A DNA stretch of 64,000 nucleotides, taken from NCBI GenBank assembly GCA_902788805.1, contig CADALO010000001.1, forward strand, positions 248,001 through 312,000. The letters are read 5' to 3'. Of the stretch, positions 13,943 to 54,642 are shown piece after piece. The notes below the pieces were generated by a model, which did not search any database, was not told where the DNA came from, and saw nothing but the letters and a program-made list of their open reading frames with translations. Within the stretch, counting starts at the first letter, position 1. Every line of letters starts with the position of its first letter. The stretch comes from an uncultured Bacteroidota bacterium (lineage in GTDB: Bacteria > Bacteroidota > Bacteroidia > Bacteroidales > P3). Made by a program: the position numbers and the translations under genes.

Positions 13943-14046
13943 ACCAACACTGGTCGTTGTACAATATATGTACAATAGTTGTACAATATATGTACAATTG
14001 GTAAACGTACAAATATTGTACAAGTATTGTACATATATTGAGGTGG
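13943..14046. repeat. Long intergenic palindrome, sub-family A, copy 1
   Basis: Imperfect palindrome of about 104 bp between divergent genes. The left arm has four 11-bp units (core tgtacaat) starting with cgttgtacaat at 13955; the right arm has only three complementary units, the outermost having been lost. The loop is aattggtaaac. The left flank ccaacactggtcg matches the flank of the sub-family B copy at 54454; the right flank is degraded (gaggtggcg). It ends about 70 bp upstream of the -33 box of the phosphatase promoter. The rest of the 330-bp gap holds only that promoter. Confidence 0.9.
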
Positions 14047-30442: not shown

Positions 30443-30547
30443 TACCAACTCCGGTCGTTGTACAATATATGTACAATAGTTGTACAATACTTGTACAATT
30501 GTAAACGTACAAATATTGTACAAGTATTGTACATATCGGAGTTGGTA
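30443..30547. repeat. Long intergenic palindrome, sub-family A, copy 2
   Basis: A 105-bp palindrome with perfect 11-bp ends (taccaactccg ... cggagttggta). The left arm has four 11-bp units (cgttgtacaat, atatgtacaat, agttgtacaat, acttgtacaat); the right arm has three complementary units and lacks the outermost one together with two flanking bases. The loop is aattgtaaac. It lies in the 302-bp spacer upstream of the MORN-variant gene and downstream of the gene ending at 30630, both on the minus strand. I see nothing else in 30548-30629. Confidence 0.92.
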
Positions 30548-30629
30548 CCTTGAATGGATGGAAATGAAGTGGTTATGCAATAATGGCGTTTTATTGCGTT
30601 ATTCGATGAAAATCAATAAGTTGGCCGGA

Positions 30630-37374: not shown

Positions 37375-38400
37375 CTATTCTTTCATTGTCCAGGTCTTGA
37401 GCCCTTCGGTGGTGAACTCGTAGCGGCGTACGGCACCGCCGAACTGGGCGAGGGCATCGGCCACAGCGTGGCGTGTCAGACCAGGGCAGTAGAAGAACAT
37501 ATAGCCGCCGCCGCCAGCACCGCTGATCTTGCCGCCCGTGGCACCAGCCTTGCGCGCTGCCTCGTAGATGGCGTCGATGCGTGGATTGCTGATGCTTTTG
37601 GCCATCTGCTTCTTGTGCTGCCAGCCGAAATCGAGTATCTCGCCGATGCGGTCTATCTCGCCCTTCAGCAGCACCTCCTTCATCTGCACCGACTGCTCTT
37701 TAAGTCTGTGCATTGACTCTATGCTACTGTTCTTCTTGGCTTTGACGTTCTGCTGCTGCTCCTTGATGATGTCGGCGCTGACGTGACTGGTGTCGGTGTA
37801 GTAGAGCAGGAGGTTGTGGCACAGCTCGTCCTGATAGCTTGGACGTATACGCAAGGGGTTGACGATAACGTTCTCCTTGTCGAATTCCATAAAGTTGAAT
37901 CCGCCGAAGGTGGCGGCGTACTGGTCCTGCTTGCCGCCGGCCAGATTGAGGTCGATGCGCTCAATCTCGTATGCCAGCCGCGCGATGTCGTATTCGCCGA
38001 GGGGCAGCTTCAGCCATTCGACGAAAGCTCCCAATATGCTGACAACCAATGTCGACGAGGTTCCCATACCGCTGCCTGCGGGGGCGTCGACAAAGGAGGC
38101 TATACGCAGCGACAAAGGCTTGTGGGTGAACTGGCGCACGATGCGGTTGTAGACGCCTTTATGGAGGACAAAAAAGCCGTCGGTGTCAACTTCTGTGGCG
38201 TTTGTGTACTCTTCGCGCAGGTGCTTGTCGGGTGCCAGGAATACCACCTTGCCGTCGTCGGTAGGCTCAATGGTGGTGTAGGCGAACATATCGACGGTGG
38301 CGTTGAGTATGGCTCCGCCGTAGATGTCGGAGTAGGGCGACACGTCCGTCCCGCCGCCGGCGAGACCAAGACGCAGAGGTGCTTTGCTTCTGATTGTCAT
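37375..38400 (-). CDS. hddA: D-glycero-alpha-D-manno-heptose 7-phosphate kinase
   Basis: A 341-residue GHMP kinase. RSKAPLRLGLAGGGTDVSPY is the N-terminal family motif, PAGSGMGTSSTLVVSILGAF the ATP-binding loop and KISGAGGGGYMFFYCPG the C-terminal glycine motif. HddA phosphorylates heptose 7-phosphate at C1, on the way to GDP-heptose. GmhA and a nucleotidyltransferase in the same cluster support this over the related L-fucokinase or mevalonate kinase branches. The start overlaps the end of the glycosyltransferase gene by 4 bp (ATGA). The bisphosphatase GmhB is not in the window. Confidence 0.88.
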   Translation of the reverse strand: MTIRSKAPLRLGLAGGGTDVSPYSDIYGGAILNATVDMFAYTTIEPTDDGKVVFLAPDKHLREEYTNATEVDTDGFFVLHKGVYNRIVRQFTHKPLSLRIASFVDAPAGSGMGTSSTLVVSILGAFVEWLKLPLGEYDIARLAYEIERIDLNLAGGKQDQYAATFGGFNFMEFDKENVIVNPLRIRPSYQDELCHNLLLYYTDTSHVSADIIKEQQQNVKAKKNSSIESMHRLKEQSVQMKEVLLKGEIDRIGEILDFGWQHKKQMAKSISNPRIDAIYEAARKAGATGGKISGAGGGGYMFFYCPGLTRHAVADALAQFGGAVRRYEFTTEGLKTWTMKE

Positions 38401-39521
38401 TCGGCTCTGAGTTTATCTATTGTTTCGACAAGTTTGTCCCAGCTGTATTTCTTTTTTTCCTCGCGTACGGCTGTGGTAAAGGCTTCCTCGCGGCTGTTTG
38501 AATAGTAGTCAACAAGTGCATCGGCAATCTGTTTGGCTTCCGGTTTGACGACATATCCCATCTCGCCGTTGTGGACAATCTCGGCCAGGCCGCCGACGTC
38601 AGTCACCAGCATCGGCCGTTCGAAATGGAAGGCTATCTGCGTCACTCCGCTTTGTGTGGCACTCTTATATGGTTGAGTGACAATGTCGCAGGCGCAGAAG
38701 TACTGGCCCACCTCGTTGTCGGCAATGAAGTCGGAACGCAGCGTCACGCGGTCGCCAATGCCGAGCCGTTCTATCTGCTCCGTATAGGGTTTGGGGTCGT
38801 CGTAGAACTCGCCTGCCACCAGCAGCTTGACATTCAGTTCTTTCAGTCGTTCGTCGCCAATGGCCTCGAGCAGAAGGTCCAAGCCCTTGTAGCCTCTTAT
38901 GAAGCCAAAGAACAGCGCATAGCGCCCATCGTTGTCGAGACCGAGCATCTTGCGCGCCTCGGCCTTGGTGGTGCTTTGACCATAGTGGTCGTAGAGCGGA
39001 TGGGGACAGAAACCGCGCGGTTTCTTGCTGTCGAAGGTGCTGATGTCGTCAAGCACTGATTTCGAGAGCGATATAAAAGCGTCATTCGACTTTATGAAGT
39101 AGCGGGCAAACAGCTTGTCACCAATGCGGTGCTCGTGGGGTATCAGGTTGTGCAGCAGACCGATACGGTGCGTGCCTTTGCGTTTGGCCAGTCGCAGTAT
39201 GGTGCCCATACAGGGCGCCATAAAGGGCAGCCAGAAGGCGCTGACTATGATGTCGGCCTTTTGGCGGCGCAGGTACAGCCCTGTCCGCAGCCAGCTGAGC
39301 GGATTGATGGAGTTCATCATCCGGCGCGTCGGCCAGTCGGCAGGTGCCGGCTTGTCGTTATACTGCGTCTTGCCGGGGAAAAGGAACTTGGGATACTGCA
39401 GCGTGAACGTAACCACCTCCACTTCGCAGCCTTGGCTCTTGTATTCTTTCGCCAGTCTGTCGCTGAAATCGGCAATCCCGCCTCGGTAGGGCCACGCAGG
39501 ACCTAATAGTATGATTTTCAT
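38397..39521 (-). CDS. Family 4 glycosyltransferase
   Basis: A 374-residue GT-B glycosyltransferase of the GT4 family. The N-terminal MKIILLGPAWPYRGGIADFS and the C-terminal donor-binding region TQPYKSATQSGVTQIAFHFE, followed by PMLVTDVGGLAEIV, are typical. Operon position ahead of hddA, gmhA and hddC suggests that it may transfer heptose or build the same polysaccharide or S-layer glycan; this is inference. The ATG at 39521 is chosen over 39560, whose extra residues are non-conserved. A minus-strand tatatttg promoter box lies at 39558-39565. Confidence 0.87.
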   Translation of the reverse strand: MKIILLGPAWPYRGGIADFSDRLAKEYKSQGCEVEVVTFTLQYPKFLFPGKTQYNDKPAPADWPTRRMMNSINPLSWLRTGLYLRRQKADIIVSAFWLPFMAPCMGTILRLAKRKGTHRIGLLHNLIPHEHRIGDKLFARYFIKSNDAFISLSKSVLDDISTFDSKKPRGFCPHPLYDHYGQSTTKAEARKMLGLDNDGRYALFFGFIRGYKGLDLLLEAIGDERLKELNVKLLVAGEFYDDPKPYTEQIERLGIGDRVTLRSDFIADNEVGQYFCACDIVTQPYKSATQSGVTQIAFHFERPMLVTDVGGLAEIVHNGEMGYVVKPEAKQIADALVDYYSNSREEAFTTAVREEKKKYSWDKLVETIDKLRAE

Positions 39522-39653: not shown

Positions 39654-39770
39654 ACCAACTCCGGTCGTTGTACAATATATGTACAATATTTGTACAATAT
39701 ATGTACAATTGGTAAACGTACAAATATTGTACAAATATTGTACATATATTGTACAACGACCGGAGTTGGT
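39654..39770. repeat. Long intergenic palindrome, sub-family A, copy 3 (complete type copy)
   Basis: A 117-bp palindrome with two 53-bp arms (39654-39706 and 39718-39770) that differ at a single position, around an 11-base loop aattggtaaac. Each arm begins accaactccggtcg and carries four 11-bp units whose core is tgtacaat; the unit core ttgtacaa is itself a palindrome. It lies between the divergent GT4 and DegQ-like genes. The rest of the 323-bp gap holds the GT4 promoter box and, on the right, no clear promoter. Confidence 0.96.
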
Positions 39771-39844: not shown

Positions 39845-40984
39845 ATGAAAAGGACTTTTTTGATTGTAATGTTGGCTGTGCTGACGGCAATGCCTTGCGG
39901 ATGCACTGCCCAGACGGAGAAAAACACAGAGAATCAGATTGTAACACGTGTCCAGCAACAGCCTTTGCCGTCGCTGCTGACGCAGACCGACTTTACCGAG
40001 GTGGCAGCGCGCACCATCGATGCCGTTGTGCACATCAAGACCGAGATGACTAAATTGACGCCTCTCTATCAGTCTTTTTTCGGGATGATTATCGACCGTG
40101 GCGTGAAGCGTCAGACCTATAATGCATACGGCTCGGGCGTCATCATCTCGACCGACGGTTACATTGTGACCAACAACCACGTGGTGCAGGATGCTGAACG
40201 TCTGACGGTTACGCTCAACAACAAGAAAGAACTGCCGGCGCGTATCGTGGGCATCGACCCAGCTACCGATTTGGCCGTTATCAAAATCGAAGCCGACAAT
40301 CTTGACTTTATCCCTTTTGGCAACAGCGACTCGGCACGCATCGGCGAACCGGTGCTGGCCATCGGCAACCCGTTCAATCTCACGTCTACTGTCACGGCTG
40401 GCATTATCTCGGCTAAGGCGCGCTATATGAACATCATAAACAATCCTGGAGTGGAGAGCACCATCGAGTCGTTCATTCAGACCGACGCTGCCGTCAACAG
40501 CGGCAACTCGGGTGGTGCGCTGGTCAACGGCCGTGCCGAACTGATTGGCATCAATACCGCTATCGCCAGCGGAAACGGCTATTACACAGGCTATTCCTTT
40601 GCCATTCCGTCCAATATTGCCCGTAAGGTGACGGGCGACCTGCGCCGCTACGGGGTTGTGCAACGTGGCTATCTGGGTGTCAACGTGGTAGAGGTGACAA
40701 GTGAGATTGCCACGCACCTCAAGCTCGACGAGCCTAAGGGTATCTACATTGCGCGCGTCATTCCCAAGTGCGCCGCCGAGAAAGCGGGCCTCCGCGAAGG
40801 CGACGTGCTGACGAAGGTCAACAATATGGATGTCAACTCGTATGCCTCTATGATGGAGGAGGTTGCACTCTTCAACCCGGGCGATGCCGTCGAGGTGACA
40901 TACTTGCGCGACGGCAAGCAGCAGACCGCTACGCTCACGCTGCTCAACTCGAAAGGTAACACACAGATAATCCGTCAACAATAA
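39845..40984 (+). CDS. DegQ/HtrA-like serine protease with one PDZ domain
   Basis: A 379-residue trypsin-like envelope protease. The catalytic triad is His112 (TNNHVVQD), Asp142 (TDLAVIKI) and Ser222 (NSGNSGGAL). One PDZ domain lies at about residues 265-365 (GYLGVNVVEVTSEIATHLKL onward). Two PDZ domains are usual in DegP/DegQ; one is the DegS-like number, but the N-terminus here (MKRTFLIVMLAVLTAMPCGC) looks like a cleaved or lipid signal, not a stable anchor. It is expected to degrade misfolded periplasmic proteins. The MATE gene starts 30 bp after its stop. Confidence 0.93.
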   Translation: MKRTFLIVMLAVLTAMPCGCTAQTEKNTENQIVTRVQQQPLPSLLTQTDFTEVAARTIDAVVHIKTEMTKLTPLYQSFFGMIIDRGVKRQTYNAYGSGVIISTDGYIVTNNHVVQDAERLTVTLNNKKELPARIVGIDPATDLAVIKIEADNLDFIPFGNSDSARIGEPVLAIGNPFNLTSTVTAGIISAKARYMNIINNPGVESTIESFIQTDAAVNSGNSGGALVNGRAELIGINTAIASGNGYYTGYSFAIPSNIARKVTGDLRRYGVVQRGYLGVNVVEVTSEIATHLKLDEPKGIYIARVIPKCAAEKAGLREGDVLTKVNNMDVNSYASMMEEVALFNPGDAVEVTYLRDGKQQTATLTLLNSKGNTQIIRQQ

Positions 40985-46081: not shown

Positions 46082-46194
46082 GTCCGTTCGTTGTCCAGTC
46101 GTTGTCCAGTTGTTGTCCAGTTGTTGTCCAGTCATTGACTGGACAACAACTGGACAACGAGCGGACAACGACTGGACAACGATCGGGAACGGAC
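46082..46194. repeat. Long intergenic palindrome, sub-family B, copy 1
   Basis: A 113-bp palindrome centred on cagtcattgactg. The left arm has four 11-bp units in perfect register (cgttgtccagt at 46089, 46100; tgttgtccagt at 46111, 46122). The right arm has four complementary units (actggacaac type), one of them changed to agcggacaacg. The outer ends gtccgtt/aacggac also pair. It lies between divergent Nif3 and DUF748 genes. It ends 72 bp before the -33 box of the plus-strand promoter. The remainder of the 364-bp gap is AT-rich leader sequence. Confidence 0.94.
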
Positions 46195-49490: not shown

Positions 49491-49550
49491 AAAACAGGGG
49501 GTTGAATAGGACAATAGAAAGACTTTTGTCCTATTCACCCCCCTGTTTTT
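49491..49550. terminator. Long terminator hairpin
   Basis: A 24-bp stem with one mismatch (aaaacagggggttgaatagg... with its complement ...ctattcacccccctgtttt) and an 11-base loop, with A and T runs outside. It separates convergent genes and is unusually long for a terminator. Confidence 0.85.
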
Positions 49551-54453: not shown

Positions 54454-54566
54454 CAACACTGCTCGTTGTCCAGTCGTTGTCCAGTTGTTGTCCAGTTGTT
54501 GTCCAGTCATTGACTGGACAACAACTGGACAACAACTGGACAACGACTGGACAACGGACGGTGTTG
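54454..54566. repeat. Long intergenic palindrome, sub-family B, copy 2 (complete type copy)
   Basis: A 113-bp palindrome with two 56-bp arms around a single central T (cagtcattgactg). Each arm has four 11-bp units of cgttgtccagt or tgttgtccagt. Apart from three mismatches in the outer flank the arms are perfectly complementary. The left flank caacactgctcg closely matches that of the sub-family A copy at 13943 (caacactggtcg). It lies between divergent DUF4105 and apt genes. Nothing else is seen in the 382-bp gap beyond the promoter boxes on both sides. Confidence 0.96.
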
Positions 54567-54642
54567 TCTCTGTAAAGTGTTGGTAATGAGATAGTGTTGA
54601 AACGGGCCGAAAATTCTTTTCTTTCGATTGCGAAAAGTTGTG

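Follow-up and report, generated by a model that had tools for sequence, protein, structure and literature searches.

Large extragenic palindromes of a rumen Bacteroidales genus keep their sites while their repeat units are exchanged

INTRODUCTION

REP elements are short extragenic palindromes with stems of 5-13 bp and a GTAG or CGTC tag, which lie mainly downstream of genes and often contain G-T pairs (PMC3733652). The palindromes that we describe here resemble REP elements, with their RAYT transposases, in that they are dispersed and extragenic, form species-specific subfamilies, and carry complementary changes in their stems. They differ in that the stems are ~40-59 bp long and built of four 11-bp units, and in that they lie mostly upstream of genes, show no wobble bias, and have no linked Y1 transposase; their flank logos display CGACCGGAGTTGGT plus a tail and no fixed GTAG or CGTC. 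The REP class is the nearest kind, but the palindromes belong to none of the known REP, RAYT, or Rfam families. A comparison with Rfam at gathering and E-value thresholds yielded only sub-threshold matches to generic (miRNA) hairpins, and we found no description of this palindrome design in the open-access literature, in agreement with the original prediction that no known repeat or RNA family would match.

Another clade-limited repeat is PINSR, a noncoding ~190-bp repeat with about 180 copies in the Prevotella intermedia/nigrescens group, for which roughly three quarters of the positions are common to strains and no terminal inverted repeats were reported (PMC4755523). PINSR is likewise limited to a Bacteroidales clade, but it lacks a palindrome of tandem units. 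MITEs and PATEs, the latter being palindrome-associated elements mobilized by IS200/IS605, share with our palindromes the short noncoding form, the hairpins, and the oriented ends, whereas here we observed no cognate transposase and, at the sites compared, no empty site or target duplication, and the core is replaced in place. Integron attC sites are long imperfect palindromes in which species-specific sequence overlies a conserved structure, a likeness that extends to the present family. An attC identity was rejected on context, as the palindromes do not lie in cassette arrays; the chromosomal genes that flank them are ordinary (NIF3-like, AsmA, protease, and phosphatase genes).

RESULTS

Five palindromes in the window

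The window, i.e., the whole 64-kb stretch of DNA that was analyzed, holds five copies, three of A type (unit TTGTACAATAN) and two of C type (unit TTGTCCAGTNG). The type copy at 39654-39770 has 53-nt arms (39654-39706 and 39718-39770) that are 98% complementary, with one mismatch and 11 nt between them, as had been described. Compared with dinucleotide shuffles, its folding gave z = -15.9 as DNA and z = -16.7 as RNA. It sits between two divergent genes, encoding a glycosyltransferase (38397-39521, minus strand) and a trypsin-like/PDZ protease (39845-40984, plus strand). The features of the five copies are as follows:

39654..39770, no strand: type copy, A subfamily, full palindrome
39654..39667, plus strand: type copy, left outer flank ACCAACTCCGGTCG, mirrored on the right
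39668..39706, plus strand: type copy, left arm, units TTGTACAATAT ATGTACAATAT TTGTACAATAT ATGTAC
39707..39717, plus strand: type copy, center AATTGGTAAAC, 11 nt, asymmetric
39718..39756, minus strand: type copy, right arm, the four units inverted
39757..39770, minus strand: type copy, right outer flank CGACCGGAGTTGGT
13943..14040, plus strand: A-type copy, right arm truncated, without right flank
30444..30546, plus strand: A-type copy, shortened right arm, right flank present
30547..30580, plus strand: one-sided tail of the 30444 copy (ACCTTGAATGGATGGAAATGAAGTGGTTATGC)
46084..46186, no strand: C-type copy
54454..54566, no strand: C-type copy with 56-bp arms, in a divergent gap
54567..54604, plus strand: one-sided tail of the 54454 copy (CTCTGTAAAGTGTTGGTAATGAGATAGTGTTGAAACGG)

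Because the center AATTGGTAAAC is asymmetric, A-type copies have an orientation. The prediction of five elements with full arms was right in number, but the right arms of the 13943 and 30444 copies are truncated, so not all five copies are complete; similarly, its statement that the unit is itself a palindrome holds for the A-type unit (TTGTACAA) but not for the other units. The 13943 copy occupies the divergent gap from 13870 (minus strand) to 14201 (plus strand), and the 46084 copy that between a NIF3-like gene (minus strand) and an AsmA/DUF748 gene (plus strand). Two further repeats were seen in the window: a terminator-like hairpin with 27-bp arms between convergent gene ends (49491-49549), unrelated to the palindrome family, and a tandem repeat with a 39-bp unit inside a predicted coding region (1558-1922).

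Architecture of the family

All members share one design, in line with the original prediction: four 11-bp units, a center of ~11 nt, four inverted units, and a short flank, to which a one-sided tail is added. The offset between the arms is 49 nt and is identical across subfamilies of different species. The unit follows the frame TTGTnCnnTnn, in which every aligned unit has T at position 9, a base left free by the extraction pattern. A flank of the ACCAACTCCGGTCG type is mirrored on both sides of the core, and the G045 orthologue of the 39654 flank carries matched differences on both sides (CACCGTCCG / CGGACGGTG). Stems measure ~40-59 bp, with many copies at 49 to 59 bp and one mismatch-free stem of 56 bp (L338); many A-type copies have one truncated arm. 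The argument for helical phasing, by contrast, is not supported: it is only arithmetic on the 11-bp unit and the TGTNC motifs of the two arms are off one 11-bp grid across the center.

The tail, absent from the earlier description of the five elements, occurs in many members. Its consensus, GGTnCCTTGAAGGnCTGRWWWTSAR, lies on a single side at a fixed +28 from the core edge and was present in 53 of 232 flanks, compared to 5 after shuffling; 51 elements have it on one side and a single element has it on both. It is recognizable in the window genome (G000), G045, G053, and G054, and within the 64-kb window we recognized no tail without a palindrome. Tail and loop had a fixed relative orientation in 46 of 50 A-type copies. 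Since the center-to-tail orientation is kept in this way, A copies once spread, or were overwritten, as an oriented unit. For the C type, the orientation of the asymmetric unit relative to the tail could be read in 4 usable copies only. Four A-type copies (L001, L048, L049, and L058; left flanks) have a GGGGCAGGCAGGGATGCCTGCGC motif directly before the element, which is either another small repeat or a shared insertion context.

Copy number and subfamilies in the window genome

Across the 2.73 Mb of G000 (25 contigs), a three-unit pattern gave 61+54 matches while its reversed-pattern control gave 0+0, so the matches are not due to chance. A pattern for the center gave 53+63 matches, in which the symmetric C type counts on both strands. 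Four subfamilies are distinguished by their units, namely, A (TTGTACAATAN), C (TTGTCCAGTNG), D (TTGTCCGATTG), and E (TTGTCCGCTTG), with D and E surfacing when copies from relatives were mapped back to G000. About 95 clusters were located (57 A, 26 C, 6 D, and 6 E, the D and E subfamilies being sampled non-exhaustively), after an earlier count of 81 of A/C type; one E copy is split across two contig ends. The family is thus genome-wide, as had been anticipated, at a density of ~one palindrome per 29 kb. This is half the density from which "a few hundred per genome" had been extrapolated, a figure that was about twofold too high.

Assemblies were seen to break inside palindromes, at the end of contig C14 and the start of C4 in G000 (L340 and L341) and at the end of C67 in G045. 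The G000 contigs C14 and C4 are probably adjacent and joined through an E-type copy. The genome also contains a second dispersed repeat of ~120 bp (L325:9005-9183) with roughly ten matches at ~78-89% identity; around five of these matches, we saw no inverted repeat of the palindrome kind.

The design was found in a single genus

Relatives of a window gene came from rumen and gut Bacteroidales MAGs, which bears out the Bacteroidales host originally supposed. Within the genus, a relaxed four-unit pattern matched 30 of 120 genomes and was absent from the other 90. In the loci fetched, the inverted repeat was confirmed for 23 of the 30 pattern-positive genomes, and several others turned out to carry plain tandem arrays. 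Outside the genus, the sole match in a family sample of 149 genomes consisted of two same-strand matches in one genome, and a stricter pattern matched no other genome among 393 of the order. Among the genomes sampled, we saw the palindrome design in a single rumen Bacteroidales genus and nowhere else. Units are species-specific: WTGTACAGTAT in G053, WTGTACGSTAT in G054 and G042, TTGTTCAGTCG in G477, and TTGTACTATYG in G067.

Viral contigs gave no match to the palindrome pattern. Unit patterns gave four matches there, all of which were rejected, three as unrelated tandem arrays without palindromes and one (L283) as an unrelated repeat with imperfect inverted arms. Two short MAG contigs, L034 (G074:C9) and L031 (G053:C33), bear A and C copies that match those of G000 at 98-99% identity; these contigs were probably mis-binned and belong to a genome closely related to that of the window. 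Relatives also carry tandem-unit palindromes of other unit lengths, with a 7-bp unit GTGACCW (L104:9883-9985) and a 9-bp unit GGAGTTCAA (L092:1390-1497); the 7-bp palindrome occupies the gap orthologous to 39654. Because of these other unit lengths, the genus may be prone to palindromic tandem arrays more generally.

Sites are stable while cores are replaced

All five window sites are occupied in G045, a relative with 88-90% nucleotide identity, and its syntenic stretches held no extra copy beyond these five. Two further 20-kb segments of G045 contained four copies, each with a G000 copy at the aligned place. In this unbiased synteny comparison, 9 of 9 sites were thus shared, and no empty orthologous site appeared among the nine in the alignable range. 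We examined 42 G045 copies altogether and paired 28 with a G000 copy (A-A 17, C-C 5, C-D 3, C-E 2, and C-A 1); the other 14 are not evidence of absence, since they were compared only with fetched G000 loci.

The alignments show what changes at a shared site. Between L327 and L332, the flanks are continuous and an AG-to-GC change is repeated in all eight units; between L196 and L302, the tail (GAAGG..TGATTATGAGGCGAATAG) is unchanged and the two genomes differ in core type, A versus C. Sites thus remain stable while all eight units can be exchanged together (C to D, E, or A) between the same neighbors. In more distant species (~75-80%), the 46084 divergent gap again holds a palindrome with other units (TTGTACGGTAT in G054 and ATGTACAGTAT in G053), and for 7 of 34 other sampled G053/G054 copies, the flanking genes were the same as at one of 57 sampled G000 copies. 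Tail orientation agreed in six readable cross-species or G045 pairs, judged partly by profile and partly by eye.

Orthologues were 0.82-0.92 identical, no higher than paralogues (means 0.83-0.91), and same-site copies of the more distant species were 0.60-0.72 identical, compared to 0.82-0.93 within genomes. Not every site is ancient, because other species have no family copy at the 39654 and 30458 sites; at 30458, their copy-free gaps are not alignable with the occupied gap. Site sharing could also partly reflect a preference for wide gaps.

Arms covary, and homogenization fades from the center

We aligned 36 cores from about a dozen genomes without gaps; the constant TGTnC positions are a requirement of the pattern used for extraction. 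Each of the 22 pairs that vary changed on both sides. Double changes filled 270 cells, compared to 102.5 in shuffles, and a single-side change to a wobble-type pair filled 5. Arm mismatches oriented by the tail comprised 44 G.T versus 49 A.C, i.e., no wobble bias. Selection on an RNA stem is hence unsupported, because neither strand shows the expected excess of wobble pairs.

The units are not equally uniform along the arm. In the C/D/E copies of G000, deviant units next to the innermost one numbered 0 of 60, compared to 33 of 120 in the two outer units, a gradient of which part stems from a single variant common to many copies; in G054, the corresponding counts were 1 of 32 and 31 of 64. Homogenization is strongest beside the center, and the inner units are the homogenized ones. 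Some cores are mosaics, such as A-A-E-E-a-a-e-e (L295), E-C-C-C-t-d-d-d (L057), and T-T-D-C-t-c-c-c. Correction between arms is not universal, since deviant units of G000 C-type copies are mostly confined to one arm (24 versus 3) and self-mirror similarity exceeded cross-mirror similarity significantly only in G054 and in the C/D/E group of G000.

Genomic context

Every copy with readable context is intergenic, and none lies in a gene. Among 83 located copies, 41 are divergent, 34 tandem, and 8 convergent, with a median distance of 208 bp from the copy to the next start codon. The window data are suggestive of an enrichment in divergent gaps (wide divergent gaps with a copy, 4 of 7, versus other gaps, 1 of 15; p = 0.02); across the fetched loci, this enrichment was weak (OR 2.3, p = 0.06). 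On a neutral reading of the gap preference, the element is tolerated only in wide gaps.

Two simple identities were rejected. A search for an intrinsic terminator, which would have a GC-rich stem followed by a T tract at a gene end, gave no match at the type copy, and the contexts are the divergent, tandem, and convergent ones counted above. A DNA uptake sequence dialect would entail many single dispersed words, whereas the 64-kb window contains one TTGTCCAGT outside arrays and none of the other three unit words.

DISCUSSION

The preferred explanation, to which we give about even credence, is that these are large REP-like extragenic DNA palindromes, specific to the genus, that spread long ago, now sit at stable sites, and are homogenized in place by conversion from the center. 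An old dispersal would have moved a ~150-bp oriented unit comprising the palindrome and its tail. The palindrome would fold into a hairpin during replication, an SbcCD-type hairpin nuclease as known from E. coli may break the hairpin near its center, and repair from another copy would overwrite the inner units outward but spare the outer units, the flanks, and the tail; in addition, mismatch repair acting on the paired arms would help to keep them complementary. It is the overwrite fading from the center outward that leads us to propose an ancient dispersal, after which break-induced conversion acted at the fixed sites. Such overwriting matches the ectopic gene conversion expected after a hairpin break, with the break, the nuclease, and the choice of donor being putative steps. 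In E. coli, interrupted palindromes form hairpins on the lagging strand, and cleavage of these hairpins by SbcCD produces two-ended breaks, which are repaired by recombination (PMC4245961). The palindromes studied in E. coli measure 246 bp or more, whereas those described here span ~90-117 bp.

Four roles had originally been offered: a protein-binding array, a cruciform-forming site, a nonautonomous mobile element, or a domain boundary. Overall, the original interpretation is supported in part. The sites common to related species argue against recent mobility, and the data favor co-evolution of both arms and all units at the DNA level.

An array for a sequence-specific DNA-binding protein, acting as a nucleoid organizer, an insulator, or a regulator at divergent promoters, is one alternative, which we consider unlikely. 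The 11-bp spacing would put the units on one helix face, and the units would change genome-wide with the specificity of the protein. The fixed frame, whose variable positions change jointly across all units, the stable sites, the many copies between divergent genes with none in genes, the window gap counts, and the near absence of single units outside arrays all fit such an array. Yet the divergent-gap enrichment is weak across the fetched loci, several subfamilies coexist within one genome, many A-type copies have a truncated arm, and no candidate protein was identified. Moreover, a plain array does not need mirrored arms and leaves the gradient unexplained, and the lack of the pattern in 90 of 120 genus genomes means that it has no general essential role.

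It seems improbable that the present family is a nonautonomous mobile element (of MITE, PATE, or REP-like kind) whose hairpin and tail are recognized by a trans-acting transposase. Its patchy distribution in the genus would suit such an element, and a copy-and-spread phase is indeed implied, because dispersed copies have the center and asymmetric marks in common, along with a tail on one side whose orientation is fixed. Against it, none of the nine unbiased sites was empty, the core swaps stay unexplained, there is no GTAG tag, and in the fetched loci we noticed no larger element sharing these ends. Y1 transposases are absent from the element-rich genomes G042, G026, and G067 and occur in most of the element-free genomes that were checked; the 12 Y1 loci inspected all lacked a palindrome within about 1.5 kb (in MAGs, which are incomplete).

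A role at the RNA level, whether as terminator, RNase III site, or structured small RNA, is very improbable: the very strong RNA hairpin and perfect arm covariation would suit it, but wobble bias is absent on the oriented strand, single-side G-U intermediates are almost absent beside the double changes, the palindrome often lies between divergent starts so that neither gene reads through it, the type copy has no T-tract terminator match, at one convergent site the palindrome sits between two separate hairpin terminators (as read from the sequences), and no Rfam family reached the gathering score.

Returning to homogenization by conversion, the element would be a self-homogenizing DNA structure, probably selfish or neutral, that is tolerated in wide intergenic gaps, and not an RNA device. 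A bolder version, which we advance tentatively and on balance doubt, is a palindrome "drive": chromosomal palindromes would break at their own centers and take on the sequence of other copies, and a new unit would thereby sweep ~100 fixed sites. If true, the palindromes would amount to a naturally occurring, homing-like drive by gene conversion that either has no dedicated nuclease or uses one yet to be discovered; a co-evolving binding protein might be coupled to it.

In bacteria, long palindromes are usually unstable. Here, they persist at fixed sites in different species, although their sequence is rewritten in every unit and in both arms at once. Concerted evolution of dispersed bacterial repeats thereby becomes directly testable, and the copies offer a natural set of sites for the study of hairpin extrusion, breakage, and gene conversion; they also supply markers for this uncultured genus of the rumen. 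Should the unit instead be a protein code, the family would point to an unknown chromosome-organizing or insulating system.
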